Positions 3,377 to 56,006 of a DNA stretch of 64,000 nucleotides are shown piece after piece. The notes under the pieces are model-generated. The model saw only the letters and a list, made by a program, of their open reading frames with translations. It had not been told where the DNA came from and ran no database searches. The position numbers and the translations under genes were made by a program. This DNA is from Tridacna crocea (Eukaryota > Mollusca > Bivalvia > Cardiida > Cardiidae): positions 39,880,427 through 39,944,426 of the forward strand of contig OX031065.1 in the NCBI GenBank assembly GCA_943736015.1, in the 5' to 3' direction. Each line of letters starts with the position of its first letter. The stretch's first letter is position 1.

Positions 3377-5270
3377 AGCTCACCTGAGCACGAAGTGCTC
3401 GTGGTGAGCTTTTGTGATCGCCCAATGTCTGTCGTGCCTCATCCACAATTTCTTTAAACATCTTCCCCTCCTAAACCACTGGGCTAATCTTGATAAAACT
3501 TGGCAGGGATGTTCCTTGGGTGTAGCTCTACCAAAGGTGTTCAAGAGATTGAATTCCAGCTATTACTCTGGTTGCAATGGCAACCAAAAGGAAAAAAACA
3601 GCAAAATCTTTGAAAATCTTCTTCTCTGAAACTAGAAAGCATAGAGCTTTGATATTTGGTATATAGCATCTCCTAGTAGACCTCTACCAAGTTTATTCAT
3701 AGGATGCCCCTGGGGTCAAAACTGGCCCCGCCCTGGAGGTCACAAGTTTGAAACATACATGTAGGAACAAAGAAGGAAAACTTTAAAAATCTTCTTCTCT
3801 GAAACTAGAAGATGCAGGGCTTTGATATTTGGCATGTAGCATCTCCAAGTAGACCTCTACCAAGATTGTTCATATGATGCCCCTGGGGTCAAAACTGGCC
3901 TGGCGCAAGGGGTCACAACATAGCAACAAAGAAGGAAAACATTAAAAAATCGTCTTCTCTGAAATCAGAAGGTGCAGAGCTTTGATATTTTGAATGTAGC
4001 ATCTCCTAGTGGATCTCTACCAAGAGTGTTCATATGATGCCCCTGGGGTCAAAACTGGCCCCGCCCTGGAGGTCACAAGTTTGAAACATACATGTAGGAA
4101 CAAAGAAGGAAAACTTTAAAAATCTTCTTCTCTGAAACTAGAAGATGCAGGGTTTTGATATTTGGCATGTAGCATCTTCAAGTAGACCTCTACCAAGAGT
4201 GTTCATATGATGCCCCTGGGGTCAAAACTGGCCTGGCCAAATGGGGTCACAACATAGCAACAAAGAAGGAAAATGTTAAAAAATCGTCTTCTCTGAAATC
4301 AGAAGTTGCAGAGCTTTGATATTTTGAATGTAGCATCTCCTAGTGGACCTCTACCAAGAGTGTTCATATGATGCCCCTGGAGTCAAAACTGGCCCCGCCC
4401 CGGGGGTCACAAGTTTGAAACATAGCAACAAAGAAGGAAAACTTTAAAATTTTTCTTTTCTGAAACTACAAGATGCAGGGCTTCAATATTTGGTATGTAG
4501 CATCTCCTAATAGACCTCTACCAATATTGTTAATATGATGTCCCTGGGGTCAAAACTGGCCCTGGGGGTCACAATTTGAACCATAGGAACAAAGGAGGAA
4601 AATTTTAAAAATCTTCTTCTCTGAAACTACAAGATGAAGAGCTTTGATATTTGGCCTGTAGAATCTCATAGTGGACCTCTACCAAGATTGTTCATATGAT
4701 GCCCCTGGGGTCAAAACTGGCACGGCCCTGGGGATCACAAGTTTGAAACATAGGAACAAAGAAGGAAAACTTTAAAGATCTTTTTCTCTGAAACTTGAAG
4801 ATGCAGAGCTTTGATATTTGGTATGTAGCATCTCCTAGTAGACCTCTATCAAGAATGTTCATATGATGCCCCTGGGGTCAAAACTGGCCCGGCTCCGGGG
4901 ATCACAAGTTTGAAACATAGCAACAAAGAAGGAAATCTTTAAAATTTTTCTTCTCTGAAACTAGAAGATGAAGAGCTTTGATATTTGGCCTGTAGCATCT
5001 CCTGGTGGACCTTTACCAAGAATGTTCATATGATGCCCCTGGGGTCAAAACTGGCCTGGCCCTGGGGATCACAAGTTTAAAACATAGGAACAAAGATGGA
5101 AAACTTTAAAAATCTTCTTCTCTAAAAGTAGAAGATTCATTTTTCACAGTTACATACCCTGTCAGAATTATTTGACCTTAAACTTTGATATTTGGTATTT
5201 ATGTTCATTGTAGACCTTTATTGCTTAGTACTCAGGTGAGCGATATAGGACCATCATAGTCCTCTTGTTT
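3377..5270 (+). mobile_element. Helentron-like non-autonomous element, AGCTCACC family, complete
   Basis: The 5' end AGCTCACC follows a T run. GCTCACCTGAG (3378-3388) is the exact reverse complement of CTCAGGTGAGC (5231-5241), giving 11-bp subterminal inverted repeats. A 5' hairpin GAGCACGAAGTGCTC overlaps the left repeat. A 3' hairpin GGACCATCATAGTCC (5248-5262) stands just before the terminal CTCTTGTTT. The core has about ten ~165-bp units, each with CTTCTTCTCTGAAACTAGAA, TTGATATTTGG and GCCCCTGGGGTCAAAAC. Subterminal inverted repeats, 3' hairpin, tandem core and insertion in a T run are the known layout of Helentron-associated elements. There is no coding capacity, so it would need Rep/helicase in trans. 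Confidence 0.8.
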
Positions 5271-5539
5271 ACCTTCCATGCTTATTTAGACACAATAATC
5301 ATAGAAAATGTTCATGGATCATGGATTATTGAACCTTCCTAAACAGGCCTATAATGCAATATTACTTTCATGGGGACATAGAACTCTTCATGAGAATTCT
5401 AACAATATGAAAGTCCTGAAATTTTCAAAATTGGAGTTAGGACACTATTATAATATAGCTACACTTTACTTTCAATTTGAAAGAGTCAGTAATTTTTTGT
5501 CAGGGAAAGGTTGAACACAGTGCAATAATTATATTGCAG
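5271..5539. other. Sequence upstream of host exon
   Basis: It ends in ATTATATTGCAG, a plausible 3' splice site for the exon starting at 5540. No coding exon was recognised here. Confidence 0.4.
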
Positions 5540-5543
5540 GAGA

Positions 5544-7317: not shown

Positions 7318-7327
7318 ACAAATGATG

Positions 7328-9988: not shown

Positions 9989-10975
9989 TTTTACCTCCAA
10001 TGGCTGAGGGCCAGCAGGCTTATGTCATGGCTGGGTGTCTGTCATGCATCATTCTGTCCATGTGTTAACTTTTATTTCAAACATCTCTGAAACTACCCAT
10101 CCAATTTTTATGAAACTTTAGAAAGTTTGTTACTAAGTATAAGAACTAGTGCTACCAATTTTAGTCCTGCCTCAAGGGTTTTATGTTCAAAACCACTCAG
10201 CCAAGTAATTGTCCGTATCACACTCAGCAACCAATCCTCAAGAGGTGCTGTTCATATACTGTACAAGTTGTGGATACTCATTAATTAAGGTAAGACCTGT
10301 GTAATGCACTTCCGGTGAAAATTCTAATTGGCTGATAAATAAGGATTTATGCAGAAATGATATTTATGCAAATTTCTAACAAATCAGAAATTCTGCTTTT
10401 GTCTATCTTGAAATTATTTTTTGATACTTTTGTTAGTTTTCTGAAAAGGGAGGTAATTATTATCTCTTTTGAATTAAGAATATAGTGGTTTGAGATTTAT
10501 AAAAGATAATTCAAAGAAGTAAAAAACGAAAAAATGAATCGGTGAAAGTTGTTCAATAATACTCATTTTTAATTATAGCTAACAGGATGATATTTTATAG
10601 CGGAAATAACTTTTCCATTAAACAGGTCTTACCTTAATGTACATGTACTAACTCTGTTTTTTCCTCAATATTTTTGCAATAAATTGGCTGTTGTTCTGTT
10701 CTATTCTATGGGGTTGTTCATGTACCATACAAGTTGTGGGTACCCATTAATTAATTAACATACATGTACTGTCCATGTTTTTCCTCAATATTTTTGCAAT
10801 AAATTGGCTGTTTTTTCTGTTGTATTCTATGGGGTTGTTTTGAACACATCACATGACCACAGATTTGGTAAAACCATCTATTGTATTACAAGATACATGT
10901 ATATGTATACATAATAAAAGTATGTCTCTGTCTATGTAGTGTTTTACATACTAGGCCATCATGGCCCTCTTGTTT
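9989..10975 (+). mobile_element. Helentron-like element, AGCTCCACTGG family, degenerate
   Basis: The left end is a worn copy of the hairpin start (CTCCAATGGCTGAGGGCCAG). The right end has the intact 3' hairpin GGCCATCATGGCC followed by CTCTTGTTTTT. The body includes a MITE (10285-10637) and a ~120-bp direct duplication (about 10640-10760 and 10761-10840). Confidence 0.55.
10285..10637. repeat. MITE with 16-bp inverted ends
   Basis: TTAAGGTAAGACCTGT at 10285-10300 is the exact reverse complement of ACAGGTCTTACCTTAA at 10622-10637. The interior is 320 bp with no frame. A neighbouring duplicate of the flank (CATTAATTAATTAACATAC near 10750) looks like the unoccupied site. Confidence 0.75.
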
Positions 10976-10994
10976 TTCTATATTCTGTCTTTTT

Positions 10995-12032
10995 AGCTCC
11001 ACTGGCCAAAGGCCAGCGGGTTTATGTTATGGCCTGGTTTCCATCGTGCATCTGTTCGTCTGTCTGTCAGTGTATCTGTGCGTCCGTCCGTGCATGTGTT
11101 AACTTTCATTTCAAACATCTTCTTCCCTGAAACTACCCTTCCAATTTTGATGAAACTTCACAGAAATTATCCTACTATGGTCCTTTTTAGAATTCCTTGA
11201 AAGAATTTTATTCCTTCAAAAACTCTGGTTGCCGTGGCAACAAAACTGAAAAATTTTGAAAATCTTCTCTGAAACAATAAGGCCTAGAGCTACCGAATTG
11301 GCATGTAGCTTTATCTAGTGGACTTCTACCATGTTCCTTCAAATAATAACCCTAGGGTCAAAATTGGTCCTGCCACGGGGGTCACAAGTTTTATATGGGC
11401 GTATATAGGGAAAAACTTAAAAGTTCTTCTGGTAACTAACCATAGGGCCTAGGGCTACCAAATTTGGCATGTAGCTCTAGTGGATCTCTACTAAGAGTGC
11501 CCAAATGATAGCTCAAGTCAAATTTGGCCAAGCCCCGGGGATTCACAAGTTTTATATGGGCTAATATAGGGAAAACTTTAAAAATCTTACCGTACCAAGC
11601 CACAGGGCCTGGGGCTACTCAATTTTACATCTAGTTTTATCAAATGGTTGTCTACCAAAGGTCATCTTTACGTTACTAACCATAATAAAGACTAAGGCCA
11701 CAAAATTTAGCCCTTCCTCATGGGTTTTATGTTTTACAGGGCCTTTTTTTGAGAAAACTTTAAAAATCTTCTTGATTATAATCACACATTCTAGACCTGT
11801 ATTATTAGGTATGGGGCTTTATCTTGTAGACCTCCACAAGGATTCAAGCAATTATAGCTTTTATAAAATTGGGTTTGTCAGGGGGAGGGGGTGTTTCACA
11901 ACTTTCTCATTGGATTTTATAGAAAAGATTTTGTATGTCCTCAAGTTTGAAACCACTTAGCCAAATAATGTAATATTTGGCTTGTAGTGTTTTTACTTAT
12001 TAACCAGTAGAGCGATGTGCACAGGGCCAGTA
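10995..12032 (+). mobile_element. Helentron-like element, AGCTCCACTGG family
   Basis: The 5' end AGCTCCACTGGCC follows TTTT, with hairpin CTGGCC-AAA-GGCCAG and a GTCCGTCCGTG run. The core is four to five ~165-170-bp units (GGCCTAGAGCTACC, GCATGTAGCTTTATCTAG, GGGGTCACAAGTTTTA). The 3' end is worn: CCAGTAGAGCGATGTGCACAG is recognisable against the intact GCCAGTGGAGCGATACAGGG of the copy ending at 56006. Confidence 0.7.
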
Positions 12033-13374
12033 AATTTCCTGCTGCTTGTATTTAATTATGCAAGACCGATTACAAAATTTTCTTACGCATCAAGAAGTAA
12101 ATACAAGCACCATGAAAGAAACTACAATGTAATATTCCTTTTATTATATACATCTACTTACAACTTTCAACAACAACATTTTGCGATTATTGACTGTTTA
12201 TTCGAGAACAAAATGAGGCAGTAAACAGTGGGGATGGTAGTAACTGTTTTTATGATGGCAGATTAATTTTAATAGTGTAACATTTCAACCCATTGGATCA
12301 CAACTTAATGTACGCTTAGTTTATTCATGAGATATGTCCTCTTGCCATATTTGGGACCAAATTTCACTGCTTGAGGACACAGATTTTTTTTCCTGTTGTG
12401 TGTGTTATTTCATCCAATTCAGCGAACATATTTGATACAGGAAAATTCATAGATATATAGTAAATAAGATTATACAATCCCTGTTAAATTCTGTGTTATA
12501 TACGATCCCTGTTCAGACTTGTCCACTTGGACATCAGTTGAAAACAGCAAGTAAACTATGGTTCAAATAGTGGGATTTGTCTATGATGGAAAGAAAATAT
12601 TATGGGGAAAATGAGAAAATGCTGGGTACAAACATTTTCTCCTTTTCCAAAATTGTTTTCAATAGGATTCTTTGTTGGGGTTCCTTAAACAAAGACGGAA
12701 CCAATCAAATCCAAAATTGGACTGCATTTGCACATTCAATACAGTTTGATCAATGTATGCAAAAGTGCAGAATGCTTTACTCAGCAGGTTCCTATTTGCT
12801 TTATTGTTACTGTTGTTGTTGTTGTTGTTTTAATATGTGCAAGTAGATGATGTTAAGTTAGTCCCCTTGTTGTTTTATGCATATTTTTGTGATTGTTTCA
12901 AAATGTACATACCAAAGCTCTTTTGCTTACTCAAATAATTATACTTTTTGCAATATATATTTATATATATCAAAATTGTATTTTAATGACTTAAGTGTAA
13001 ATAGGGCATACAAAGACTAATTTGATAGTTGTAACATATTTGTCAACCCTTTGAATGAAAGCATATTTGTATTAAATTTTCCAAAGATTTTTTTTTTCCT
13101 TACCTTTTGGGATAAATAATTATGTGCAGAAAATGGCTACAGTCCAATTCATTAGGTTGTGCAATCAAACTTTAAAACGAAAAGCGGAGGGTGTAGATCA
13201 AAGATCAGACTGCATGTTCTGTGCAGCTTGATCTGTAACATCATACACCCACTGCAATGAAAGAATCAAGCGTTCAAGTACATGTGCCATTGCCTATGTT
13301 GAATTCCAGATTGTATTATATTTCTTTATATTTCTCACATAACCTGTTGTGGACAGTTCAAGCTCAGCTGTTTT
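12033..13374. other. Non-coding stretch with MITE and microsatellite remnants
   Basis: It contains a degenerate M1 copy at about 12520-12690, a (TGT)n run at about 12803-12828, and an M2-type palindrome piece (AGATCAGACTGCATG) near 13200-13235. No gene was recognised. Confidence 0.45.
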
Positions 13375-20454: not shown

Positions 20455-20592
20455 TAACTTTAGTCGACTAGAAAATATTCTGGGAAAAGGAGAAAATGCT
20501 TGTAACCGGCATTTTCTCCTTTTCCCACAATGTTTTCAGAAGGCTTCTTCCTGTGTGTCGTTAAAATCAGGGGTTGTTTGGTAAAGAAATAA
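20455..20592 (-). repeat. M1 MITE, left-truncated
   Basis: It has a near-perfect core (GGGAAAAGGAGAAAATGCTTG and complement), then the reversed short arm (AGAAGGCTTCTTCC, GTCGTTAAAATC, TTTGGTAAAG). The other arm is missing. Confidence 0.65.
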
Positions 20593-21820: not shown

Positions 21821-23272
21821 AAACAAGAGGACCATGATGGTCCTATATCGCTCCCCTGAGTACTAAGCTGTAAAATCAAACTTGTGACCCCTAGGCAGGG
21901 CCAGTTTTGACCCCAGGGAAATCCTAAGAAAAAAAATTGGTAGAGGTCCACTAGGAGATGCTACTTACAAAATATCAAAGCTCTACACCTTCTAGTTACA
22001 GAGAAGTAGAATTTTAAAGTTTTCCTTCTTTGTTCCTATGTTTCGAACTTGTGACCCCTGGGGCAGGACAAGTTTTAACCCCTGGGGCATCGTATGAAGA
22101 AACTTTTTAGAAGTCCACTAAGAGATGCTGCATCCCAAATATCAAAGCTTTACGCCTTCTAGTTTCAAAGAAGAAGAATTCTAAAGTTTTCCTTCTTTGT
22201 TTCTATGTTTCGAACTTGTGACCAACGGGACAGGGCAAGTTTTGACCCCAGGGACATCATATGAACAAACATTGTAGAAATCCACAAGGAGATCCTTCTT
22301 ACCAAATATCAAAGCTTTACATCTTCTAGTTTCATAGTAGAAGAATTTTAAAGTTTTCCTTCTTCATTTCTATGTGTTAACCTTATGACCTTTGGGGCGG
22401 GCCATTTTTGACCTCAGTGACATCATATGAACAATCTTAGTAGAAAGTCCACTGGGAAATGCTACATACCAAATATCAAAGCCCTGCAACTTCGAATTTC
22501 AGAGAAGAAGAATTTTAAATTTTTCCTTCTTTGTTCTTATGTTTCAACCTTGTGACCCCCAGGCCGGGGCCAATTTTGACCCAAGGGACATCATATGAAC
22601 AATCTTTGTAGAAGTCTACTAGGAGATGCTACATACCAAATATCAAAGCTACGCACCGTCTAGTTTCAGAGAAGAAGAATTTTAAAGTTTTCCTTCTTTG
22701 TTCCTATGTTTCAAAATTGTGACCCCCGGGGCGGGGCCAGTTTTGACCCAAGGGACATCATATGAACAATCTTGGTAGAGGTCCACTAGGAGATGCTACA
22801 TATCAAATATCAAAGCCCTGCACCTTCTAGTTTCAGAGAAGAAGAATTTTAAAGTTCTCCTTCTTTGTTCCTATGTTTCAAAATTGTGACCCCCAGGGCG
22901 GGACCAGTTTTGACCCCAGGGGTATCATATGAAAAATCTTGGTAAAGGTCTACTAGGAGATGCTCCATACCAAATTTCAAAGCTCTAAGCCTTCTAGTTT
23001 CAGAGAAGAAGATTTTCAAAGATTTTGCTATTTTTTCCTTTTGGTTGCCATGGCAACCAGAGTTATGGGTAAAATTCAATCTCTTGAACAACTTTGGTAA
23101 AGCTTCACACAAGGAACATCCCTGCCAAGTTTATCAAGATTAGCCCAGCGGTTTAGGAGGAGAAGATGTTTAAAGAAATTGTGGAGGACGCACGACGGAC
23201 GACGCACAACGGACGGCGGACATTGGGCGATCACAAAAGCTCACCATGAGCACTTCGTGCTCAGTTGAGCTA
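21821..23272 (-). mobile_element. Helentron-like element, AGCTCACC family, reverse strand
   Basis: Read on the minus strand, it begins at 23272 with AGCTCAACTGAGCACGAAG, whose GAGCACGAAGTGCTC hairpin is intact. It ends at 21821 with hairpin GGACCATCATGGTCC and CCTCTTGTTT. The core has about seven ~165-bp units (TTTCAGAGAAGAAGAATTTT; CATACCAAATATCAAAGC as read on the plus strand). The subterminal repeat has one mismatch on the 5' side and one extra base on the 3' side. Confidence 0.75.
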
Positions 23273-23929: not shown

Positions 23930-24239
23930 AAAGCCTTGACTGTCTTATATGCACTAAATTAATGTTGTCCTGTCAAAACAGCAATATATTATGTCAAATA
24001 TTCAGTATATTTAGCTGTAGTATCTTTATAGTGTGTGCATTTATTGAGGTAAACCGTCATTATACTGATTGCGCGAGACAATATATTATGCCGATGTGAC
24101 TTTATCACGGGGGTAATACCAAAATCGCTAACTTTGCTGTCGATCGAGCTGGTACTGCGTAAAGCTGCTGTCGACCGAGGAATACGGTTTTCGACCGAGC
24201 GGTACGGCTGTCGACAGGGGGACAAGGTGATTTAAATCT
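23930..24239 (-). repeat. Terminal module shared with the 41.5-44.7 kb element
   Basis: Bases 23930-24090 are similar to the reverse complement of about 44530-44702 (CTTATATGCACTAAATTAATG; CTGTCAAAACAGCAATATAT). Bases 24090-24235 match the reverse complement of about 41890-42030 (GGGGGTAATACCAAAATCGC; ACGGCTGTCGACAGGGGGAC). Several GTCGAC sites lie in GTCGACCGAGGAATACGG-type motifs. Confidence 0.65.
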
Positions 24240-25203: not shown

Positions 25204-25278
25204 GAAACGTCATCATTGCATCATCGCTAAAATATGACGTAATCGGGGCTAAACAACTCGCACACGACCACGTGATAT

Positions 25279-25514
25279 TTAACCCTTTACCAAACAATCC
25301 ATTGTTTTAACGACCCTGGGAAGGAAGATTATTGCAATTATTGTTGGAAAAGGAGAAAATTCTGGTTGCCAGCATTTTTTCCTTTTCCTACAATATTTTC
25401 TACCCTGTCAAGAACCTCAACTTCATTTGTTCCACTTTCAAAATTTGACATCTGCAATCTGCAGATGATTTCAATTTGGAATGGTCTAAAATTTGTCGTA
25501 CGGGAAACGATTAA
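25279..25514 (+). repeat. M1 MITE inside foldback loop
   Basis: It runs TTAA (25279-25282) to TTAA (25511-25514), with CCCTTTACCAAACAATCC at the left and a slightly diverged core. It lies only in the loop, so it gives no arm-to-arm dating. Confidence 0.75.
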
Positions 25515-25707
25515 TAAACCTTCATTATCAGCATCTTTTCCAGTTCACACTTTACTATCGCCAGTGTTAAACAATGTCAAATATGGCAGAATTTGACCAA
25601 GATTTTGAGGAAGTAACGGTTAGACTCAACTAATGGAAATGTCTACTGATTTACTATGTTCAGCAATATTTTTTCTTTAAATTCCAACATATCGTCGATT
25701 TACTTCT

Positions 25708-28280: not shown

Positions 28281-28309
28281 TTTTCGCCGGACAAGAGGAA
28301 AAGTTCGGG

Positions 28310-33263: not shown

Positions 33264-35483
33264 TTGCATATAGGTTATTTAAACATTCAACATTTATTTC
33301 CTAAGTTGGATGAAATCAAATTTATACTAAATGAGACTAACTCACTTGATTTATTTGGTCTAGCAGAAACATTTCTCACAGAAAAAGTAGAAAACATAAA
33401 TCTTAACATAAATGGCTTTGTTTTTGAAAGAAGAGATAGAGTGGGAAAACTTGGCGGGGGGTTACTAATATACATCGCAAATCACATAATCTATAAAAGA
33501 AGAAATGATTTAGAACAGAGTGATATAGAAAGTATTTGGATTGAAATCAAATTTCCACATAACAAACCATTATTAATTAATTTCACCTATCGACCGCCAA
33601 ATACCAATCAAGACTGGATAGATAAGTATGAGAATCAGTTATTATCAGCTGAGTTTAATGACACAAATCTCCTGTTATTTGGAGATTACAATATAAATTT
33701 CAATTTATCATCTACATGTTTATATAGTAATACAAAGTGGGCTAAATTGATTAAGGATTTTGAATTACATCAACATATAACGGTTCCTACAAGAGTAACG
33801 AGCAACTCTTCAAGTATAATTGATCATGTCTATAGTACCTGTCCAAATTTTGTTCAAGAAATATCTGTTCCAGAAATAGGAATAAGCGACCACTTTCCTG
33901 TTGCTATAACTTATAAATACTCAAAAGGAAACGTAGGAAATAGAATCCAGTCAATAACATATAGATCTTTTGATAATTTAAACTTAGATAAATTTTTGAT
34001 GGATCTTGCCAAGACCAACTTTGATTTAGTCGAAACAATTAATGACCCATGTAAAGCGCTAGAACATTTTTACTTGATGTTGAATAACTGCCTATCAAAA
34101 CATATTCCGGTCAAAGAAAAACGGGTTAAAAAAGGAAGGCAGCCGGACTGGTTCAACGAAGAAATTATACAAGCAATAAGGACAAGAGACAATTTCAAAC
34201 AAGGACACAATTTCTCCATGTACAAAATTTGGACAAATAAAGTCACTGCAATTATTAAGAAAAACAAAAAGGATTATTTTAATAAGGCCATTCAAAGTAA
34301 AACAGATTCAAAAAATATTTGGAAAAATCTTCAACGAATTACATCAAATGAAAGGAACCCTTTTGAACTTCCCAATAATCTCATCGTTAATGGTTTAGAT
34401 GAAGAAGGTACAGTAAACGTCATAAATGCATTGAATAGACATTTTGTAAATATTTCACGAATGGTAACTAGAGCCCCCTTTAACCCGAAGAACTTTGAGG
34501 GTTTTAAAAGATATCTAGATAAAAAAATAAAAAATAATTACTTTAACATACATTTCATGACAGCACTAGAAGTACGGCATATGATTGAAAAATTAAACAA
34601 TAATAAAGCCACTGGGCTTGATGGTATAAGTCCCAAAATATTAAAATTGTGTAAAGATTTTATATCAAAACCTATATCAGTAATAATAAATAGTTGCATA
34701 GCAACGGGAATTTTCCCAGCTGATCTCAAAAAAGCGAGTGTAAAGCCTCTTTTCAAAGGCGGCGATAAATCGGATCCAAATAACTATCGGCCGATTTCAG
34801 TTTTACCTACAATTTCAAAAATATTTGAGAGACATATTGCAAATCAACTTAAAATCTTTTTAAAAACTACCGATGTTCTGTTCGCATATCAATCGGGCTT
34901 TAGAGAAAATCATTCTTGCCAGAATTCTCTCATTAGACTAATAGACTCGTGGTTAATGGACGTAGACGATGGTAAAATTATTGGATCGGTCTTTCTTGAT
35001 TTTAAAAAAGCATTCGATCTTGTTGATCATGAAATATTATTATATAAACTTAAATTACATCATTTCACAGACAAAGCTTGTAAGCTTTTCAATTCTTATT
35101 TAAATGGTAGATTTCAAGTTATCAAAAATGGCCCTGTGGTATCGGAAATGCAACCACTATCATCTGGTGTTCCTCAAGGCTCGATTTTAGGACCCATCTT
35201 ATTTTTACTATACGTGAATGACTTACCTTTAAACCTTCTATCAAACATAGACATGTATGCAGATGATGCTACTCTTTATAAATCAAGTAAATCTCTATCA
35301 GAAATTAATGAATTATTACAAAATGACTTATCTAAAATTGATACTTGGTCTAAAAATAACAATATGATTTTGAATCCAAAGAAAACTACTTGTATGATTT
35401 TAGGAAGTAAAAGGAGACTTAAGAATCTACCAGAACTTCAATTAAAAGAATCTACCAGAACTTCAATTAAAAGTTTCAAATAA
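33264..35483 (+). CDS. LINE ORF2: APE endonuclease and reverse transcriptase
   Basis: Numbering from Leu at 33264 (codon TTG). Endonuclease: HIGYLNIQHLFPKLDEI, LAETFL (Glu 35), TYRPP, FGDYNINF (Asp 141, Asn 143), GISDHFP (Asp 209, His 210). Reverse transcriptase: VKPLFKGGDKSDPNNYRPIS, SGFRENHSC, VFLDFKKAFDLVDHEIL, SSGVPQGSILGPILFLLY and MYADDATLY (YADD at 665-668). The endonuclease nicks target DNA and the RT primes on it. No ATG is near the frame's start. Near 35448 a 25-bp direct duplication (35423-35447 and 35448-35472) shifts the frame and gives a premature stop at 35483. The C-terminal part continues in the next frame. Confidence 0.85.
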   Translation: MHIGYLNIQHLFPKLDEIKFILNETNSLDLFGLAETFLTEKVENINLNINGFVFERRDRVGKLGGGLLIYIANHIIYKRRNDLEQSDIESIWIEIKFPHNKPLLINFTYRPPNTNQDWIDKYENQLLSAEFNDTNLLLFGDYNINFNLSSTCLYSNTKWAKLIKDFELHQHITVPTRVTSNSSSIIDHVYSTCPNFVQEISVPEIGISDHFPVAITYKYSKGNVGNRIQSITYRSFDNLNLDKFLMDLAKTNFDLVETINDPCKALEHFYLMLNNCLSKHIPVKEKRVKKGRQPDWFNEEIIQAIRTRDNFKQGHNFSMYKIWTNKVTAIIKKNKKDYFNKAIQSKTDSKNIWKNLQRITSNERNPFELPNNLIVNGLDEEGTVNVINALNRHFVNISRMVTRAPFNPKNFEGFKRYLDKKIKNNYFNIHFMTALEVRHMIEKLNNNKATGLDGISPKILKLCKDFISKPISVIINSCIATGIFPADLKKASVKPLFKGGDKSDPNNYRPISVLPTISKIFERHIANQLKIFLKTTDVLFAYQSGFRENHSCQNSLIRLIDSWLMDVDDGKIIGSVFLDFKKAFDLVDHEILLYKLKLHHFTDKACKLFNSYLNGRFQVIKNGPVVSEMQPLSSGVPQGSILGPILFLLYVNDLPLNLLSNIDMYADDATLYKSSKSLSEINELLQNDLSKIDTWSKNNNMILNPKKTTCMILGSKRRLKNLPELQLKESTRTSIKSFK

Positions 35484-37130: not shown

Positions 37131-38409
37131 TATACGCCCGAAGGGTATATTTATGTTATACCCCCGGTCGTCCGTCCGTCCGTCCGTTAGCAATTTCTTG
37201 TGTGTGCAACTCGAACTCCTACAGTTTTCATCGGAATTATTTGAAACTTGCCACAATGAATCTCCATGATGTCTAGTTGTGTACCTGTGTCTTAGAATTT
37301 TGATCGCTGTTTGCGTTCCAAAATTATCTGCCCTTGATTTCTGAAATAACCAACTTTTCACTTTGAATTTTTGTCCAGGCCATAACTTCCATACCATAAA
37401 AGGTATCAAATTGAAACTACATACACTGATAGAACACATTATGGAGAAGTGCAGTGCACATGAAACATAACCCTGCTACTTTTATTTTTTGAGTTATTGC
37501 CCTTTGTTAATTTTCAGTTTGAATTTTTGTCCAGGCCATAACTTCCAAACTATAAAAGCTAATAACTTGCAACTTCATACACTGATAGAACACATTATGG
37601 AGAAGTGCATTGCACATGAACCATACCTCTGCCACCGTTATTTTTTGACTTACAGCCCTTTGTTAATTTTCAGTTTGGATTTTTTGTCCAGGCCATAACT
37701 TCTAAATTATAAAAGCCAGTAACTTGGAACTTCATACACTAATAGAACACATTGTGGAAAAGTGCATCACACATGAACCATAACTCTGCCACTTTTATTT
37801 TTTGAGTTATTGCCCTTTGTTAATTTTCAGCTTGAATTTTTGTCCAGGCCATAACTTCCAAACTGTAAAAGCTAATAACTTGCAACTTCACTTCATACAC
37901 AGCTAGAACCCAATATGGAGAAGTGCATTGCACATGAATCATAACTCTGCGATCTTTATTTTTTTAGTTATTGCCCTTTGATAATTTTCAGTTTGAATTT
38001 TTGTCCAGGCCATAACTCCCAAACTTTAAAACCAATCATCTTGAAACTTCAAAGACTGATAGAACACATTATGAAGAAGTGCACTGCATAAGAACCATAA
38101 CTCTGCTATCCTTCTTTTTTAGTTATTGCCCTTTGTTAGTTTTCTCTTTGAATTTTCGTCAGGGCCATTATTTCTAAAATATAAAAGCTATGATCTTGAA
38201 CCTTTCAAGACTAATAGAACACCTTCTGGAGAACAGCAATTCACAAAATTTGTAACTATGCCACCCTTCTTTTTTTACCTATTGTCCTTTAATATTTTTC
38301 ACATATCATGGAGATTAACTACTCTTTATTCATGGCCCTTCCGTCATTTTAACTCATTTTACTGACAAGCCCCTTCGGGCGTATATGCGCCGCTTTGCGA
38401 AGCTCTTGT
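37131..38409 (+). mobile_element. Helentron-like element, TATACGCCC family, complete
   Basis: TATACGCCCGAAGGG (37131-37145) and CCCTTCGGGCGTATA (38371-38385) are exact 15-bp subterminal inverted repeats. The 5' repeat contains the hairpin CCC-GAA-GGG. The 3' end has GCTTTGCGAAGC followed by TCTTGT. A GTCCGTCCGTCCGTCC run follows the 5' end. The core has six ~157-bp units (TTTTTGTCCAGGCCATAACT, ATAGAACACATTATGGAGAA, TTATTGCCCTTTGTTAATTT). It is the same architecture as the other Helentron-like families but with unrelated sequence. Confidence 0.8.
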
Positions 38410-40269: not shown

Positions 40270-40498
40270 TTAACCCATTACCACACAGCAAAAATTTTAG
40301 ACCTATCCAAATTGAAAGCATTTTGAGATGACAATTTCAAAGTAGCTCAAATGGTGCAATTTTGCTTTGATAGGGAAAAAAGAAACTGGGAAAAGGAGAA
40401 AATGCTGGTTACCAGCATTTTCTCCTTTTCCAACAATGATTTCAAAAGGCTTCTTCCTCACGGGCGTTAAAAGTTGTCGTTGTGTGGTAAAGGGTTAA
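40270..40498 (-). repeat. M1 MITE, full length
   Basis: It is 229 bp, TTAA to TTAA. The long arm comes first (CACACAGCAAAAATTTTAGAC), then a perfect core around CTGGTTACCAG, then the short arm (AAGGCTTCTTCCTCACGGG). Ends: CCCATTACC and GGTAAAGGG. Confidence 0.85.
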
Positions 40499-45745: not shown

Positions 45746-45747
45746 TT

Positions 45748-48583
45748 AGCTCACCTGAGCACATAGTGCTCAGGGTGAGCTATTGTGATCGATCGTTGTC
45801 CGGCGTCCGTCCGTCCGTGTGTCCGTCCGTCCGTCTGTCCGTCCGTCCGTCCGTGAACAATTATTTAAAAATTCTTCTCCTCTGAAACCGCCCAACAGAT
45901 TTCAGTGAAACTTCACAGAAATGATCCTTAGGTGATGCACTTTCAAAATACTTCAAAGATTTGAATTCCATGGAGAACTCTGGTTGCCATGGCAACCGAG
46001 AGAAAAAACTTTAAAAAATCTTCTTGTCCCAAACCGTAAGGGCTAGAGCTCTCATATTTTGCATGTAGCATCATCTAGTGACCCTCTACCAAAATACTTC
46101 AAATTATGGCCCTAGTTTGAAAATGGCCCTATGTTGTGGGTTCTTGGATTTCACATGGAGATAAAGAAGGAAATCTTAAAAAATTACTTGTCCCAAACCA
46201 TAAAGGCTAGAGCTCTCATATATGGCATGTAGTATCATCTAGTGGCCCTCTATTAAAATACTTCAAATAATGGCCCTAGTGTAGAAATTGGCCCTATGTT
46301 GTGGGTTCTCAGATTTCACATAGAGATAAAGAAGGAAATCTTTAAAAATCTTCTTGTCCCAAACCGTAAGGGCTAGAGTTTTCATATTTGGCATGTAGCA
46401 TCATCTAGTGACCCTCTACCAAAATACTTCAAATTATGGCCCTAGTTTGAAAATGGGCCTATGTTGTGGGTTCTCGGATTTCACATAGAGATAAAGAATG
46501 AAATCTTTAAAAATCTTCTTGTCCCAAACCATAAGGGCTAGAGCTCTCATATATGGCATGTAGTATCATCTAGTGGCCCTCTACCAAAATACTTCAAATA
46601 ATGGCCCTAGTATGGAAATTGGCCGTATGTTGTGGGTTCTCCGATTCCACATAGAGATAAAGAAGGAAATCTATAAAAAAAACTTTATGTCCCAAACCTT
46701 AAGGGCTAGAGCTTTCATATTTGGCATGCAGCATCATCTAGTGGCCCTCTACCAAAATACTTCAAATTATGGCCCTAGTGTTGAAAATGGCCCTATGTTA
46801 TGGGTTCTCCGATTTCACATAGAGATAAAGAAGGAAATCTGTAAAAAACTTCTTGTCCCAAACCTTAAGGGCTACAGCTTTCATATTTGGCATGTAGCAT
46901 CATCTAGTGACCCTCTACCAAAATACTTCAAATTATGGCCCTAGTGTTGAAAATGGCCTTATGTTGTGGGTCCACAGATTTCACATAATGATAAAGAAGG
47001 AAATCTGTAAAAATCTTCTTGTCCCAAACCTTAAGGGCTAGAGCTTTCATATTTGTCATGTAGCATCATCTCGTGACCCTCTACCAAAATACGTCAAATT
47101 ATGGACCTAGTGTGGAAAATGGTCCTATGTTGTGGGTTCTCGGATTTCACATAGAGATAAAGAAGGAAATCTTTAAATATCTTCTTGTCCCAAACCATAA
47201 GGGCTAGAGCTCTCATATATGGCATGTAGTATCATCTAGTGGCCCTCTACCAAAATACTTCAAATAATGGCCCTAGTGTGGAAATTGGCCCTATGTTGTG
47301 GGTTCTCCGATTCCACATAGAGATAAAGAAGGAAATCTATAAAAAACTTTATGTCCCAAACCTTAAGGGCTAGAGCTTTCATATTTGGCATGCAGCATCA
47401 TCTAGTGGCCCTCTACCGAAATACTTCAAATTATGGCCCTAGTGTTGAAAATGGCCCTATGTTGTGGGTTCTTGGATTTCACATAGAGATAAAGAAGGAA
47501 ATCTTTAAATATCTTCTTGTCCCAAACCATAAAGGCTAGAGCTCTCATATATGGCATGTAGTATCATCTAGTGGCCCCCTATTAAAATATTTCAAATAAT
47601 GGCCCTAGTATGGAAATTGGCCCTATGTTGTGGGTTCTTCGATTCCACATAGAGATAAAGAAGGAAATCTATAAAAAACTTTATGTCCCAAACCTTAAGG
47701 GCTAGAGCTTTCATATTTGGCATGTAGCATCATCTAGTGGCCCTCTACCAAAATACTTCAAATTATGGCCCTAGTTTGAAAATGGCCCTATGTTGTGGGT
47801 TCTCGGATTTCACATAGAGATAAAGAAGGAAATCTTTAAAAATCTTCTTGTCCCAAACCATAAGGGCTAGAGCTCTCATATATGGCATGTAGTATCATCT
47901 AGTGGCCCTCTACCAAAATACTTCAAATAATGGCCCTAGTGTGGAAATTGGCCCTATGTTATGGGTTCTCCGATTTCACATAGAGATAAAGAAGGAAATC
48001 TGTAAAAAACTTCTTGTCCCAAACCTTAAGGGCTAGAGCTTTCATATTTGGCATGTAGCATTATCTAGTGACCCTCTACCAAAATACTTCAAATTATGGC
48101 CCTAGTGTTGAAAATGGCCTTATGTTGTGGGTCCTCAGATTTCACATAATGATAAAGAAGGAAATCTGTAAAAATCTTCTTGTCCCAAACCTTAAGGGCT
48201 AGAGCTTTCATATTTGGCATGTAGCATCATCTAGTGACCCTCTACCAAAATATGTCAAATTATGGCCCTAGTGTGGAAAATGGGCCTATGTTGTGGGTTC
48301 TCGGATTTCACATAGAGACAAAGAAGGAAATCTTTAAATATCTTCTTGTCCCAAACCATAAGGGCTAGAGCTCTCATATATGGCATGTAGTATCATTTAG
48401 TGGCCCTCTACCAAAATACTTCAAATAATGGCCCTAGTGTGGAAATTGGCCCTATGTTGTGGGTTCTCAGATTTCACATAGAGATAAAGAAGGAAATCTT
48501 CAAAAGTCTTCTTGTCCCAAACCTTAAGGGCTAGAGCTTTCATATTTGGCATGTAGCATCATCTAGTGGCCCTCTACCAAAAT
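45748..48583 (+). mobile_element. Helentron-like element, AGCTCACC family, 3'-truncated, 16-unit array
   Basis: It starts AGCTCACCTGAGCAC after a T run, with hairpin GAGCAC-ATA-GTGCTC and a long GTCCGTCC run. About sixteen ~165-bp units lie between ~46010 and 48583, each with TTGTCCCAAACC, AAGGGCTAGAGCT, GCCCTCTACCAAAATACTTC and GATAAAGAAGGAAATCT. The array is cut at 48583 by MITE sequence. No 3' hairpin is attached. Confidence 0.8.
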
Positions 48584-50145: not shown

Positions 50146-51003
50146 AGCTCACCTGAGCACAAAGTGCTCAGGATGAGCTATTGTGATCACTCACCGTCTG
50201 GCGGCGTTCGGCGTCCGTCCGTCAACCGTCCATCCACACTTTTTTGTTTACACTCTAACATCTACAAATATTAACCAATCAGCACCAAACTTGGTCAAAA
50301 TGTATATGACCATAAGATCTCGGATGAGTTGGATTATGGGTGTAATCGGACCAGAAGGACTGGAGTTATTTTCCCTAAATTAGAAAAATTGCTATATTTG
50401 ACTTTGTTTACACTCTAGCATCTACAAATATTAACCAATCAGCACCAAACTTGGTCAAAATGTATATGACCATACGATCTCGGATGAGTTCGATTATGGG
50501 TGTAATCAGACCAGAACGACTGGAGTTATTTGCCCTTGAATTAGAAAAATTGCTATATTTGACTTTGTTTACACTCTAGCATCTACAAATATTAACTAAT
50601 CAGCACCAAACTTGGTCGAAATGTATATGACCATAAATCTCGAATGAGTTCGATTATGGGTGTAATCGGACCAGAACGACTGAAGTTATTTGCCCTTGAA
50701 TTAGAAAAACTGCTATATTTGACTTTGTTTACACTCTAGCATCTACAAATATTAACCAATCAGCACTAAACTTGGTGTAAATATATGTGACCGTAAGATC
50801 TCGGGTGAGTTCGATTATGTGTCTAATCGGACCAGAACGACTGGAGTTATTTGCCCTTGAACTAAAAAAATTGCTACATTTGACTTTGTTTACACTCTAG
50901 CATCTACAAATTTAAACCAATCACCACTAAACTTGGTCGAAATATATATGACCGTAAGATCTCGAATGAGTTTGATTGTAGGTCTAATAGGACCAGTTAT
51001 TGC
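50146..51003 (+). mobile_element. Helentron-like element, AGCTCACC family, different core
   Basis: It starts AGCTCACCTGAGCACAAAG with hairpin GAGCAC-AAA-GTGCTC. The core is five ~161-bp units quite unlike those of its relatives: TTTGTTTACACTCTAGCATC, AACCAATCAGCACCAAACTT, GAGTTCGATTATGGGTGTAA. The 3' hairpin is missing. Confidence 0.7.
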
Positions 51004-51626: not shown

Positions 51627-52008
51627 AGCTCACCTGAGCACGAAGTGCTGGGTGAGGTATTGTGATTCGTCGTTGTCCAGCGTCTGTCTTTCCACAATTC
51701 CTTTAAACATCTTCTCCTCCTAAACCAATCATGTTGAAACTTGACAGGCATATTCCTTGGGTGAAGTTCTACCAAAGTTGTTACAAGAATTGAATTAACC
51801 TTTTAAATCCAGGGGTCACAATTTTGGGCAAAATTGTATATAGAGCAAAATTTAAAAATGTTTTTGTCTGAAACAAGAAGGCCTAGAGCTTTGATATTTG
51901 GTATGTGGCATTTCCTTGCGGACTTCTACCAATTTTGTTCAAATGATGCTCCTGGGTCAAAACAGGACATAAAGGTATACAGAATGAACTTTAAAAGTCT
52001 TGTTCTAT
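51627..52008 (+). mobile_element. Helentron-like element, AGCTCACC family, 5' fragment
   Basis: It starts AGCTCACCTGAGCACGAAGT and continues with the same leader as 3377 (CACAATT.CTTTAAACATCTT; CTCCTCCTAAACCA) and about one core unit, then is cut by the M1 MITE at 52009. Confidence 0.7.
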
Positions 52009-52212
52009 TTAACCCTTTACCGCACAATCCCAAGTTTTAACGCCTGTGAGAAATAAGGCTCTTGAAAATATTGTGGGAAAAAGAGGAAATACTTGTAACC
52101 AGCATGTTTTCCTTTTTCCACAATGTTTTCAACCCAACCAAAATCAAATTTAAATTTTTGAGTCACATTTATTTTGTTGTCAGCAAATGGTTTGAATTTG
52201 GACAAGTCTTAA
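52009..52212 (+). repeat. M1 MITE
   Basis: Left end TTAACCCTTTACCGCACAATCC. The right arm ends early at GGACAAGTCTTAA, where an M2 repeat begins and shares the TTAA. Confidence 0.7.
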
Positions 52213-52410
52213 CCCTTTAAGCGCCTTTCACTACTATAGTTGCCTTTGTGTCTAGTGTAGATGAGGATCAGACTGCATGAAATGTGCAGTCCGATCATTG
52301 ATCTATACTGTCTGCTTTGTTGAAACACTGCAGACAAAAGGCACCCATGCAGTTGTTATCATCTTGGACTCATTCTGGAATGAAAATGGCCTTTGGGTTT
52401 AGGATTAAAT
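52209..52410 (+). repeat. M2 MITE-like repeat
   Basis: It starts TTAACCCTTTAAGCGCC. The core is GATCAGACTGCATGAAATG then TGCAGTCCGATC. It contains an inner inverted pair GTTGCCTTTGTGTC / CAGACAAAAGGCA. A separate partial core lies near 52755-52792. Confidence 0.55.
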
Positions 52411-53109
52411 TTTGTTGTTTGTTAATGATTTGAGCCAAGCCTGTTAGCTCATTACCTACAGGGCTAGTTATGCAGGGATGTCATTTTAAATCTCAGTTGG
52501 GCCAAGCACTCAGGTAACCAGCATTTTTTTTTTTAACTTTTTCCACAATGTTCTCTACCCATCCCAAATCTAAGTTCATTTTTTGAGACAAATTTATTTT
52601 GTTGTCTGCAAATGCTCTGAATTATAGACCAGTCTAAAATTTTTGTTTGGTAAAGAGATAAAGATAGACCAAGTACTGGTAATATGCATTTCAAGACTGT
52701 GTTGTAGGCAATACTCTCTTGCACAATATAAGGCATATAATTATATCCAAGATCCAACTGCAGTCTGATCTTTATCTACACTGTCTGACAAAACATCCTA
52801 TCTTGCATACCCCTAACCTTTGTTCCCATCTGGTCATTTTTTCCTTTTATCTATTCAGGATGGACTGATACAGTTTAAACTTGACATGAAGCCCCCTTTT
52901 TCCATGACACAGCAATAAATTCCAAAACCCTGACAATATGCGCTAGGTCACTTGATGTGTGAAAGTTTCATCCAAATCTGTTGAGATATGTCAAGTAATT
53001 AAAGAGATATTGGTGAAAATTAAATATAATATGAAGACCCCTTTTTCCATGATGCAGCTGTAAATTGCAGAACCTTGACAATATGCGCTAGGTCACATGA
53101 TAAGAAACA
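52411..53109. repeat. MITE half and inverted AAAAAGGGGG units
   Basis: An M1 right half lies at about 52515-52661 (CCAGCATTTTTTTTTTT to TTTGGTAAAGAGATAA). At 52880 and 53030 there are units reading AAGCCCCCTTTTTCCATGAC, the reverse complement of the 51004 array. Confidence 0.5.
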
Positions 53110-53300
53110 TTCTGTTGAAACTTTTGAAAACATTGTGGAAAAAGGAGAAAATGCTGGTAACCAGCATTTTCTCTTTTTTCCCACAAAGTTTTCTACCCAT
53201 TTAAAGATATATTGTGTCACTTGAGCCAATATGAAAATGTTGTCTGCAAATGCTTTCAATTTGGACAGATCTAAAATTTTGCCGTGTGGTAAAGGGTTAA
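53110..53300 (+). repeat. M1 MITE, left end lost
   Basis: The core is GAGAAAATGCTGGTAACCAG with complement. The right arm is complete to TGTGGTAAAGGGTTAA at 53300. Confidence 0.75.
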
Positions 53301-53869
53301 AGGCCTTGACAGCATTTTTCTCTCTGGCTGTTAGGATGTATCTTTGAACATTGTGTTCATTGTATTTTGAGTTCATTTTTGTTCATTCATTTAACTCTGT
53401 AGTACAGATTTTATCTTGTAAGTCTTAGAAGTCATTATAATTTTTGTTCTTCACTTTGTGGTGTTTGTCTTAATTTATAATTAAGTTTATGACGACCCCC
53501 CCCCCAAAAAAAAAAAGATTTTGGGCATATACTCCACCATGAAATGAAGTACCATTTGAAAGATCTGTTCAGGTAGGGCCAAGGTCAGTGTCACACTTGA
53601 AGGGCAAATTTTTGTAAGCTGGACGCATTGAAAGGTTGGTGCAAGACTATTGCAAGTGTAAATACATTGTTGATGTGTTTACAATAGCCATTACCCATGA
53701 ACATGTCCCTGGACAACCACTGTAGTTGTTGGTGTATTTAACAACATTATAATACTAACTTGTATAGAAAGTCTTGAATCGGCAAACATTCTCTGCTAAG
53801 TTTGCTCAAATCAGGCAACTTTTTGCCACACACCAAAAGGCCTAGGGCTTTGTTATTATTCCTTCAAAA
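53301..53869. other. Unassigned stretch
   Basis: C/A homopolymer at about 53496-53515. No gene recognised. Confidence 0.3.
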
Positions 53870-54311
53870 CTCTGTTCTGGAGGTATATAGGAGTCAGCTT
53901 GTTGGTCCGTCCATCCATCCATCCATCAGTCTTTCTGTAGCATTTTCTTGTCAGAGCTTGTTCTCAACAACTACAGGACAGATTTCATTCAAATTTTAGA
54001 GAGACTCGGTGCCAAGCAAGAATGTGCATATTATATTTTGGTGACGGTTCATTGAATTTTTACAAAATCATTTTCCTTTGATGAAATTTCTTGTTCTCCC
54101 TATTTTTCAACAACTATTGGACAAATATCATTCAAACTTCTCTTAAATATTTATATAACCGGGTTTGGTTAAGAAAGATTATCTTCTTATCTAAACCAAG
54201 AAGACCTAAAGCTTTGGCCTTGCACTTCGATATTTGGTATTTATCTTCATTGTAAATCTTTGCTGCTTGGTACTCAGGTGAGCGATATAGGACCATCATG
54301 GTCCTCTTGTT
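53870..54311 (+). mobile_element. Helentron-like fragment with intact AGCTCACC-family 3' end
   Basis: It opens with GGTATATAGGAGTCAGC and a GTCCGTCCATCC run, which belongs to a TATACCCC-type start. It closes with CTCAGGTGAGCGATATAGG, hairpin GGACCATCATGGTCC and CTCTTGTT. This is either a chimera or a deletion joining two elements. The next element starts nine bases later. Confidence 0.55.
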
Positions 54312-54319
54312 CGTTTTTT

Positions 54320-56006
54320 AGCTCCACTGGCCGAAGGCCAGCGGGCTTATGTCATGGCCCGTTGTCCGTCGTGCGTCCGTCCGTCCGTGCGTCCGTCCGT
54401 CCGTCCGTGCGTTAACTTTTTCTTTAAACATCTTCTTCTCTGAAACTACCCATCCAATTTTGATGAAACTTCACAGAAATGATCCTGTCATAGTCCTCTA
54501 TAGAATTTCTTGAAAGAATTTAATTCCTTCAAAAACTCTGGTTGCCATGGCAACAAAACTGAAAAATTTTAAAAATCTTTGAAAATCTTCTTGTCTGAAA
54601 CCGTAAGGCCTAGGGCCACCAAATTTTGCATGTAGCTTTATCTAGTAGACCTCTACCAAATTTCTTCAAATTATAGCCCTGGGGTCAAAATTGGCCCCGC
54701 CCCGGGGGTCACAAGTTTTACATGGGCTTAGAGAGAACTTTAAAATTCCTCTTCTACCTAGGCATAGGGCCTAGGGCTACCAAATTTGGAATGTAGTTTT
54801 ATCTAGTAGACCTCTTCCAACAGTGTCCAAATTATAGCCCTGGGGTCAAAATTGGCCCCGCCCCGGGGGGTCACAAGTTTTACATGGGCTTATATAGGGA
54901 GAACTTTAAAATTCTTCTTCCACCTAGCCATAGGGCCTAGGACTACCAAATTTGTCATGTAGCTTTATCTAGTGGACCTCTACAAAGGGTGTCCAAATTA
55001 TAGTCCTGGGGTCAAATTTGGCCCGGCCCGGGGGGGGGGTAACAAATTTTACATGGGCTTATATAGGGAAACTTTAATAATCTACTCGTACCTAGCTGCA
55101 AGGGCTAGGGCTATCAAATTTTGCATGTAGCTTTATCTAGGGGGTCTCTACCAAAGGGTGCCCAAATTAAAGCCCTGGGGTCAAATTTAGCCCTGTCACA
55201 GAGGGTCACAAGTTTTACATGGGCTTATATAGGGAAACTTTAATAATCTACTCGTACATAGCCATAAGGCCTAGGGCTACCACATTTTGCGTGTAGCTTT
55301 ATCTTATGGGCCTTTACCAAGAGGGCCCAAATTTTAACTTTGGGGGTCAAGTTTGATCCCACCCCAGGGGTCACAAGTTTTACATTGGCTTTTACAGTAA
55401 AAACTTGATAAACCTGTCTCATGGGTCACATATTTTAGAGGGCCTTTTATTGAGCAAACTTGTTTTACAGGGCTTTTTATTGGGCAAGATTAAAAAATCT
55501 TCTTGTATATAAACACACATTCTAGTTTCATATTGTAGGTCTGGGGTCAAAATTGCCTCCATTCAGGGATCACAAGTTTAACATGGGCTTCAAAATATAG
55601 TCACTTCAATTCAAACATTTATCAAGGGAAATAACTCTTTTTATGAAAGATAAAGTTTGGTACTATTTACTTCCCTTGATTATCAAACTGCTTTGATACA
55701 TGATTGGTGCTAGACATTAAGTTTTTGATAGAAAATGTTCTGTTTTCAAGGAGTGTGATTCATTTTGATGCTAATAGTTATGCTCACATGAGGTGAATAA
55801 TAAATTCAGAGTAAGGTTTCTATCATTCAGCTTATTTTTCCAAGGATTTTACCTTTCATGCCAATGAATTAATCTACTTGTATTGCCTGACAGTGTTCAT
55901 TGTTTTTGAAGGCCCTTTTTTTTTCATGGTCATGAACACTTCAGTTTGTGTGGTAAAGGGTTAAAAAGCCAGTGGAGCGATACAGGGCCATCATGGCCCT
56001 CTTGTT
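54320..56006 (+). mobile_element. Helentron-like element, AGCTCCACTGG family, complete
   Basis: GCTCCACTGGC (54321-54331) is the exact inverse of GCCAGTGGAGC (about 55969-55979). The 5' hairpin is CTGGCC-GAA-GGCCAG. The 3' hairpin GGGCCATCATGGCCC stands before CTCTTGTT. A GTCCGTCCGTCC run follows the 5' end. About five ~165-bp core units carry GGGGTCACAAGTTTTACATG. It is the intact reference copy for this family. Confidence 0.8.

Follow-up and report, generated by a model that had tools for sequence, protein, structure and literature searches.

Support for covariation of terminal hairpins between families of Helentron-associated elements in Tridacna crocea

The window analysed here is a stretch of 64,000 nt (C10:39880427-39944426) in the 1.05 Gb genome of Tridacna crocea. 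Labels such as C1:69.6M or C10:26.0M give contig and position, and C1 and C2 without a position are element families. The window contains complete copies of three element families, A (n=3, one on the minus strand), C1 (n=1) and D (n=1), in addition to partial copies. In each family a subterminal repeat, 11 bp long in A and C1 and 15 bp long in D, has its complement near the opposite end, and the core holds a tandem array with a period of ~156-167 bp. Families A and C1 belong to a known class, the Helentron-associated non-autonomous elements (HINEs); C1 is placed there by its structure, without a partner as the basis. D is only HINE-like because its proposed 3' palindrome is not supported. A canonical Helitron (5' TC, 3' CTRR) was rejected, as the ends read (T)AGCTC or TATACG and CTTGT. 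Comparison of the sequences supports covariation of both hairpin partners between families, once families beyond A, C1 and D are added.

The family A copy at 3377..5268 (plus strand, 1892 bp) extends from the 5' hairpin to CTTGT and was recognised by its ends and by its similarity to an autonomous element at C10:26033315-26048646. Its 5' hairpin, AGCTCACC..GGTGAGCT (3377..3410), contains the 5' subterminal repeat at 3378-3388. A 167-bp tandem core array, found by array detection, fills 3604..5136. The 3' subterminal repeat CTCAGGTGAGC (5231..5241) is complementary to the 5' repeat at 11/11 positions, and is followed by the 3' hairpin GGACCATCATAGTCC (5248..5262), which has one mismatch (C/A) in this copy, and by the tag CTCTTGT (5262..5268), seen in the sequence. 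The consensus 5' hairpin of the family folds at -15 kcal/mol (z -6.0 against shuffles) and the consensus 3' hairpin at -5.9 kcal/mol (z -3.2), so that A has both the inverted repeat and the 3' palindrome of a HINE. The second copy (21823..23271, minus strand, 1449 bp) carries changes in both subterminal repeats. The third (51627..54310, plus strand, 2684 bp) has no reported core array. Altogether, AGCTCACC 5' ends are found on the plus strand at 3377, 45748, 50146 and 51627, with a variant on the minus strand in the second copy, and CTCAGGTGAGC 3' repeats at 5231, 54273 and 57749. The remainder are partial plus-strand copies: an A-like 5' end with a 15.5-copy 166-bp array and no recognised 3' end (45748..48583), an A-like 5' end with a different 160-bp array, identified from its ends and by array comparison (50146..50996), and a lone 3' end found by the end pattern (57749..57786).

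The complete C1 copy (54320..56005, plus strand, 1686 bp) lies directly 3' of the A copy at 51627..54310. Its 5' hairpin AGCTCCACTGGCC-GAA-GGCCAGCGGGCT (54320..54347; -8.2 kcal/mol, z -1.9), which includes CTGGCC-GAA-GGCCAG at 54327, has one bulge and one mismatch in the outer part of the stem and still forms the inverted repeat of a HINE. The 3' subterminal repeat GCCAGTGGAGC (55968..55978) is 11/11 complementary to 54321-54331, and both A and C1 (11/11 each) fall within the ~11-15 bp of subterminal inverted repeats of HINEs. The 3' hairpin GGGCCATCATGGCCC (55985..55999; z -3.4) is a 3' palindrome and is followed by TCTTGT. It differs from the A 3' hairpin by a single base pair (A-T versus G-C). 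The repeat GCTCCACTGGC is present in the window at 10996 and 54321; the former belongs to a C1-like 5' end (10995..11022, plus strand) shortly 3' of a lone C1-like 3' end (10956-10973). It was also observed that C1-type 3' ends stand in tandem with a spacing of 195-197 bp in L028, L029, L042 and L043 (contig C1:2.87 Mb and 4.07 Mb), indicating that the terminal hairpin itself is now part of a satellite-like array.

The D copy (37131..38409, plus strand, 1279 bp) has a 156-bp core array, and its ends were compared with empty copies of the host repeat. Its 5' subterminal repeat TATACGCCCGAAGGG (37131..37145) and 3' subterminal repeat CCCTTCGGGCGTATA (38371..38385) are complementary at 15/15 positions, as subterminal inverted repeats of a HINE are; TATACGCCC lies at 37131 and its complement at 38377. 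The proposed 3' hairpin GCTTTGCGAAGC (38392..38403) is weak and unsupported by covariation, and the 23-nt D end folds no better than shuffles (z 0.30). A 112-bp segment in the left part of D (37170-37281) is 75% identical to ~4771-4879 inside an autonomous A' element at C1:69.6M. The earlier note on this DNA had described A, C1 and D as Helentron-like families with unrelated cores. All of the ends it named (AGCTCACC, CTCAGGTGAGC, GCTCCACTGGC, GCCAGTGGAGC, GGGCCATCATGGCCC, TATACGCCC, GCTTTGCGAAGC and CTCTTGT) are present, and its reading as Helentron-like is borne out for A and C1 by the subterminal repeats and the 5' and 3' hairpins and, for A, by an autonomous partner with A ends. The cores of A and C1 are related: their ~166-bp arrays are 66% identical over 789 bp and are grouped in one repeat family. 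The claim of unrelated cores holds for D, since the D array, like the arrays at 50243-50996 and 541-1851, matched none of the other arrays at E 1e-4.

The ends were also searched genome-wide with patterns that leave the stems free, with reversed patterns as controls. The A/C1 3' ends gave 6052 matches (0 in the reversed control), C-type 5' ends 4279 (10), other 3' ends of A/C1 form 8028 (134), D 3' ends 1218 (1), and A/A'/T 5' ends with the inner stem free 12394 (13). Detailed rows are the first 100 places by contig order (contig C1; for D also contig C2) and not a random sample. All 100 rows were used for A/C1 3' ends, D 3' ends and A/A'/T 5' ends. For A'-type 3' ends 98 of 100 rows were typed (one chance row was excluded), and 95 of the 98 entered the covariation count, three A-like rows being set aside. 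For C-type 5' ends 97 of 100 rows were typed and 93 analysed, the four dropped rows being three 26-nt ones and a single row whose loop was short. Further families came from these ends. Family A' has the 3' stem GGGCCA/TGGCCC with the loop TCT in 81 of 98 typed rows, and the inner 5' stem of family T is TTAGCAC/GTGCTAA. Family C2 has the 5' stem CTGGCT/AGCCAG and the 3' end GCCAGTAGAGC, followed by the hairpin AGGCCC-TTCA-GGGCCT and then TCTAGT. Family F5, represented by one locus, reads AGGCGC-TCAA-GCGCCT and then CTAGT. Because C2 and F5 end in CTAGT, the tag CTCTTGT, which is present at the ends named for families A, C1 and D, is common and not universal.

The clearest case of covariation is family T. 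T-A stands in place of G-C in 6 of the 100 listed A/A'/T 5' ends, and in four of these T copies whose 3' ends were fetched the 3' repeat reads CTAAGG in three (two of them with a perfect 11-bp match) and CTTAGG in the fourth. The same base identity is preserved in three places, namely in the subterminal repeat at the 5' end, in the hairpin arm that pairs with it and in the 3' repeat. C2 behaves likewise at another position: the 5' GCTCTACTGGC and its partner arm AGAGC match the 3' GCCAGTAGAGC at five loci, a match at the level of the family. When the four distinct 3' stems of six families were compared, 24/24 pairs were kept, a value reached by 1/24 permutations (mean 20.0). Between 5' and 3' repeats of five families 54/55 positions pair; 2/120 permutations equal this (mean 42.8), and A and A' have a 5' repeat in common. 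The three-site change in T is stronger evidence than these family-level statistics. Families A, C1 and D alone give little covariation because the 3' hairpins of A and C1 differ at one pair.

Autonomous elements with some of these ends exist in the same genome. A genome search for Helitron_like_N gave 32 matches. Around the match at C10:26042614 lies a 15,332-bp element (C10:26033315-26048646) with family A sequence at both ends (the 5' hairpin and the 3' end) and an uninterrupted 2534-aa Rep-helicase-endonuclease frame. In Pfam, the protein matches Helitron_like_N (PF14214) with 96 bits and PIF1 (PF05970) with 81.6 bits. It combines Rep, a PIF1-like helicase and an apurinic/apyrimidinic (AP)-type endonuclease in one protein, as expected of a Helentron, the endonuclease part being provisional. 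The 5' part of the element holds a 5.2-copy 167-bp array. The window copy at 3377..5268 is 79% identical to it over the first 1398 bp and 90% identical over the last 145 bp. A partner was defined by a shared subterminal inverted repeat (subTIR) and at least 80% identity of the last 60 bp; over these 60 bp identity is 95% for the copy at 3377, 92% for that at 51627 and 85% for the minus-strand copy, so all three have C10:26.0M as a partner, and the lone A end at 57749 (73%) does not. A second autonomous element, C1:69626616-69641320 (14,705 bp), has A' ends and an uninterrupted 2575-aa frame, likewise with Helitron_like_N and PIF1 domains and an Exo_endo_phos match below threshold. A- or A'-type 3' ends are also found 3' of three Rep or endonuclease matches (C1:73.58M, C11:13.54M and C7:28.85M). 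Since the A-ended autonomous element holds a 167-bp array and shares its left module and right end with the window copy, HINE-A is best read, from the sequence, as an internal-deletion derivative of an array-carrying autonomous Helentron. It would have retained the left module (5' hairpin, GTC-rich microsatellite and ~167-bp tandem array) and the last ~100-145 bp (3' repeat, 3' hairpin and CTTGT), and would have lost the Rep-helicase-endonuclease gene between them. Family A, the commonest elements, is probably moved by such gene-carrying relatives in the same genome.

For the other families the search for relatives gave a mixed result. Two endonuclease matches (C6:58.97M and C12:39.40M; 28-29% identity, with stop codons) have Rep matches ~3 kb upstream and are followed on the same strand, after 0.3 and 0.8 kb, by C2 3' ends. 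This suggests that C2 is a member of a second Helentron lineage. A Rep match at C2:48.13M, which has a PIF1 helicase frame, is also followed ~6 kb downstream on the same strand by a C2-type 3' end (L053, minus strand, 4679-4735), either as its partner or as a chance neighbour. The last 60 bp of C1 are 65% identical to C10:26.0M and 60-67% identical to the other four elements compared, below the 80% of a partner; a C1 partner may be among the Rep-helicase loci outside those read. The Rep-helicase element at C16:10.16M (1976 aa) was rejected as a partner: 20 kb were read and contained none of the known 3' ends. Its open reading frame (ORF) has a C2-like 5' end ~8 kb farther downstream, which hence does not flank it. 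In 3-5 kb downstream of nine Rep or endonuclease matches (L062, L063, L064, L065, L067, L068, L071, L072 and L073) no 3' end type was found; L063 contains a family A 5' end that belongs to another copy. In the endonuclease search, in which 150 of 342 first-look candidates were scored and counts are lower bounds, there are more than 25 short matches confined to the final ~100 residues of the Helentron endonuclease (query from ~131); they often have ~100-aa open frames and are perhaps a separate deletion-derivative family with an endonuclease tail.

Copy boundaries were examined at empty sites. For seven A elements, one A' and one D, the 60 bp on either side were joined and searched genome-wide, with 40 of 183 first-look candidates scored, so that counts are lower bounds. 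A match spanning the junction was obtained for two of the nine, the A copy L038 (at least 2 loci) and the D copy of the window (at least 19 loci), and six empty loci were read (two for L038 and four for D). Compared with its two empty paralogs, L038 is inserted in a T run, as expected of T-rich insertion, with no target duplication evident. The empty D copies read CATTAT-CTTAAC across the junction, where no duplication is evident. The ends named in the earlier note are the copy boundaries at these two empty sites (one A and one D). Furthermore, the base after CTTGT is T in 24/30 A/C1 copies. New elements start within 25 bp of a TCTTGT at 10968-10999 and 54305-54326 in the window and at 1498-1512 in L008, and at both window sites this TCTTGT is the end of another element; we read such starts as insertions in, or next to, the T-rich tail of an older copy. 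In addition, the window holds ~20 copies of a palindromic repeat, GGGAAAAGGAGAAAATGCTGGTAACCAGCATTTTCTCCTTTTCCC (21 in one repeat family; e.g., 12605-12672, 20482-20549, 29764-29831 and 40388-40455). Two fetched HINE 3' ends abut half of this repeat, which could serve as further empty sites.

We propose that the ends are recognised as a matched set. The Rep/helicase would read the 5' hairpin as the start and the 3' hairpin with the short tag as the stop. Only source elements with matched ends would persist, copies would decay freely once inserted, and some coordinated changes would arise in one step by template switching between the inverted arms. We consider this explanation as a whole, including the derivation of HINE-A and end recognition by the Rep/helicase, to be likely. 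Several observations weigh against it. The family-level statistics are suggestive and come from few families. The F5 stem was found by a hairpin scan and the C2 3' repeat by seeking the complement of the 5' repeat, and both procedures favour pairing. Without the F5 stem 18/18 pairs are kept, reached by 1/6 permutations, which is a weak test; without the C2 3' repeat 43/44 positions pair, with 2/24 permutations and a permutation mean of 35.8. No C2 copy was read end to end, and the C2 evidence is at the family level. When T-type 3' repeats followed by a hairpin of 15 nt were sought, 140 matches were obtained, of which the 100 listed resemble, for the most part, scattered mutants of other families; this pattern is blind to the shorter hairpins of the fetched T copies and gives no genome-wide T 3' count. 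Within families, single hits number 166 in 388 rows; doubles number 11 (paired) and 2 (unpaired) where 3.7 are expected, with no correction for descent. Seven of the 11 paired doubles and none of the unpaired ones sit in 3' hairpins (two rows are counted twice), several of the 11 are a pair type fixed in another family, and the 5' stems of A, A' and T have no paired doubles in the rows examined. At the D ends no covariation was seen in the 100 listed copies under two pairings, neither of them convincing; in the alternative pairing CGC-TTT-GCG, 4 paired and 3 unpaired doubles at the outer pair against 2.66 expected prove nothing. The Exo_endo_phos (PF03372) match of the C10:26.0M protein, 20.1 bits, is below the Pfam cut-off of 24.5, and its endonuclease is provisional. 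No autonomous partner for C1 or D was found among the Rep-helicase loci read. Finally, 28 bp of host repeat are missing from the filled D copy a few bases right of the insertion; they may have been deleted separately or lost together with the insertion.

The excess of single uncompensated hits fits drift in dead copies together with constraint on source elements. It seems that copies drift after insertion and source elements stay matched. This bears on what the earlier note had claimed. Compensatory diversification is supported between families, as seen in T, C2 and the stems, and is unsupported for D and, for the most part, within families. Contrary to what had been supposed, pairings are not all kept: the A 3' hairpin GGACCATCATAGTCC has its C/A mismatch, the C1 5' stem has its bulge and mismatch, and the fourth pair of the D hairpin GCTTTGCGAAGC is absent in 34/100 listed copies. 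The D 3' hairpin was dropped as a covarying structure. Convergence on CTCTTGT describes A, C1 and D, and C2 and F5 depart from it. Machinery that reads structure plus an end tag is not supported by the within-family singles as far as structure goes, and the CTAGT ends refute a universal tag. Autonomous Helentrons with matching ends, for which that note called, were found for A (C10:26.0M) and A' (C1:69.6M) and for neither C1 nor D.

Other explanations have to be weighed against matched ends. It is unlikely that structure is unconstrained and that the families are separate lineages with few-change descent, one or two ancient double changes and chance. The 3' stems of A, A' and C1 do differ at one pair only, within-family doubles are few, and the 3' test without F5 is left with 1/6 permutations. 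However, three sites far apart that change together are hardly explained by descent alone, and pairing between the 5' and 3' repeats is well above the permutation means (54/55 against 42.8; 43/44 against 35.8 without C2). The elements are short, gene-less and have inverted repeats close to both ends, which recalls miniature inverted-repeat transposable elements (MITEs) mobilised by a cut-and-paste transposase that binds the repeats. This reading is highly improbable and was rejected on the ends and the autonomous partners: the 3' repeat is subterminal and not terminal, no target duplication is evident at two empty sites, and the autonomous elements with matching ends encode Rep-helicase-endonuclease. 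Exchange of end modules between Helentron lineages by recombination or capture, more than stepwise change, is a serious rival or companion to stepwise compensatory change, and we rate it only somewhat below an even chance. C1:73.58M and C10:26.0M are 70% identical in coding DNA and 88% identical over the last 98 bp; C1:69.6M is 72-74% identical to C10 in coding DNA, and the 3' module is unshared beyond the terminal ~40 bp; and in family C1 the 5' end is C2-like whereas the 3' hairpin and tag are A-like. On the other hand, few autonomous 3' regions were compared, and the pattern could also arise if the terminal 100 bp of A-type ends are constrained.

A related possibility concerns how the paired changes are written. 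Compensatory changes might be mutational and not selected, if a polymerase switches template between the hairpin arms on a single-stranded intermediate and sometimes flips the loop. Among 42 C2 rows, 20 have GAA as the 5' loop and 14 have TTC, its exact reverse complement, and intermediates are rare; a TTC loop with an unchanged stem makes the C2 hairpin core an exact reverse complement. Likewise, exact inversion of GGGCCATCTTGGCCC gives one A' 3' hairpin, GGGCCAAGATGGCCC (1/98 typed rows). Inverted loops with compensatory changes in RNA genes have been proposed as template-switch signatures (PMC8794818). However, a switch inside the 5' hairpin leaves the 3' repeat, 1.7-15 kb away, unchanged, and the 3' repeat of T changed too. 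TTC could also be one subfamily spread from a single event, and no exactly inverted loop (TTC, GTT) is present among the 100 A, A' and T 5' rows. As a full account template switching is possible, at roughly one chance in three; the exactly inverted loops suggest that some of the compensation may have been produced by mutation and not by selection. It is doubtful, more so than an absence of constraint, that the three copies of a family's end key (the repeat at the 5' end, the hairpin arm paired with it and the 3' repeat) stay identical because one is copied from another in a rolling-circle intermediate. There the 5' and 3' repeats would anneal as single strands, and template switching or conversion would rewrite one end from the other. 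If so, new families would arise in single jumps, with loop inversions as by-products. Matched ends, perhaps in part written by template switching, remain the explanation that we favour.

Other features are present in the window. A 635-aa ORF at 30951-32858, with a weak sub-threshold GDSL-type match, is followed by a 739-aa ORF at 33264-35483 with endonuclease and reverse transcriptase domains; the two are probably a long interspersed nuclear element. A 353-aa ORF at 58160-59221 with MULE/ZSWIM RNaseH-like domains is a probable transposase fragment. Long inverted repeats occupy 24239-29275, with 703-nt arms that are 97% complementary and 3.1 kb apart and, inside them, 275-nt arms that are 99% complementary.

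The elements resemble known systems. Like oyster Cg_HINE (PMC7492417), they have 11-12 bp subTIRs, a complementary inverted repeat beside the 5' subTIR, a GTCY/GTCC microsatellite, a short satellite-like central array, a 3' palindrome and many families in one genome. For the oyster elements no relation to an autonomous Helentron could be established, whereas here two autonomous elements have A or A' ends and a ~167-bp array; in the available part of that account there is no mention of between-family covariation. Satellite-carrying HINEs of this type are here tied to autonomous Helentrons in one and the same genome, which was not possible in the oyster study. DINE-1 of Drosophila (PMC2374699) shares the subTIR, partial inverted repeat, GTCY microsatellite, central repeats, TT insertion and 3' hairpin. 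Compensatory mutations that maintain the DINE-1 3' stem between species were suggested in 2008 in the same paper. A full-text literature search for Helentron with compensatory returned no paper in the library searched and also missed that one. Our work adds counts to the 2008 suggestion; in contrast to DINE-1, change is tracked here within one genome and at both ends, with a three-site change and loop inversions. Two questions become testable: whether a paired structure is read by the transposase, and whether paired changes result from selection or from template switching. Helentrons and HINEs of mite, Culex and Drosophila (PMC4067079) share the fusion of Rep/helicase to an AP-type endonuclease, and their HINEs are deletion derivatives; insertion in T-rich sites without target modification, the empty-site method and the 11-bp/80% rule come from that study. 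The elements here differ from those Helentrons in the ~166-bp tandem arrays inside the 5' part of the autonomous elements. Relative to these studies, as far as the available parts go, the one-genome counts, the three-site coordination, the loop inversions and an array-carrying autonomous partner are new.

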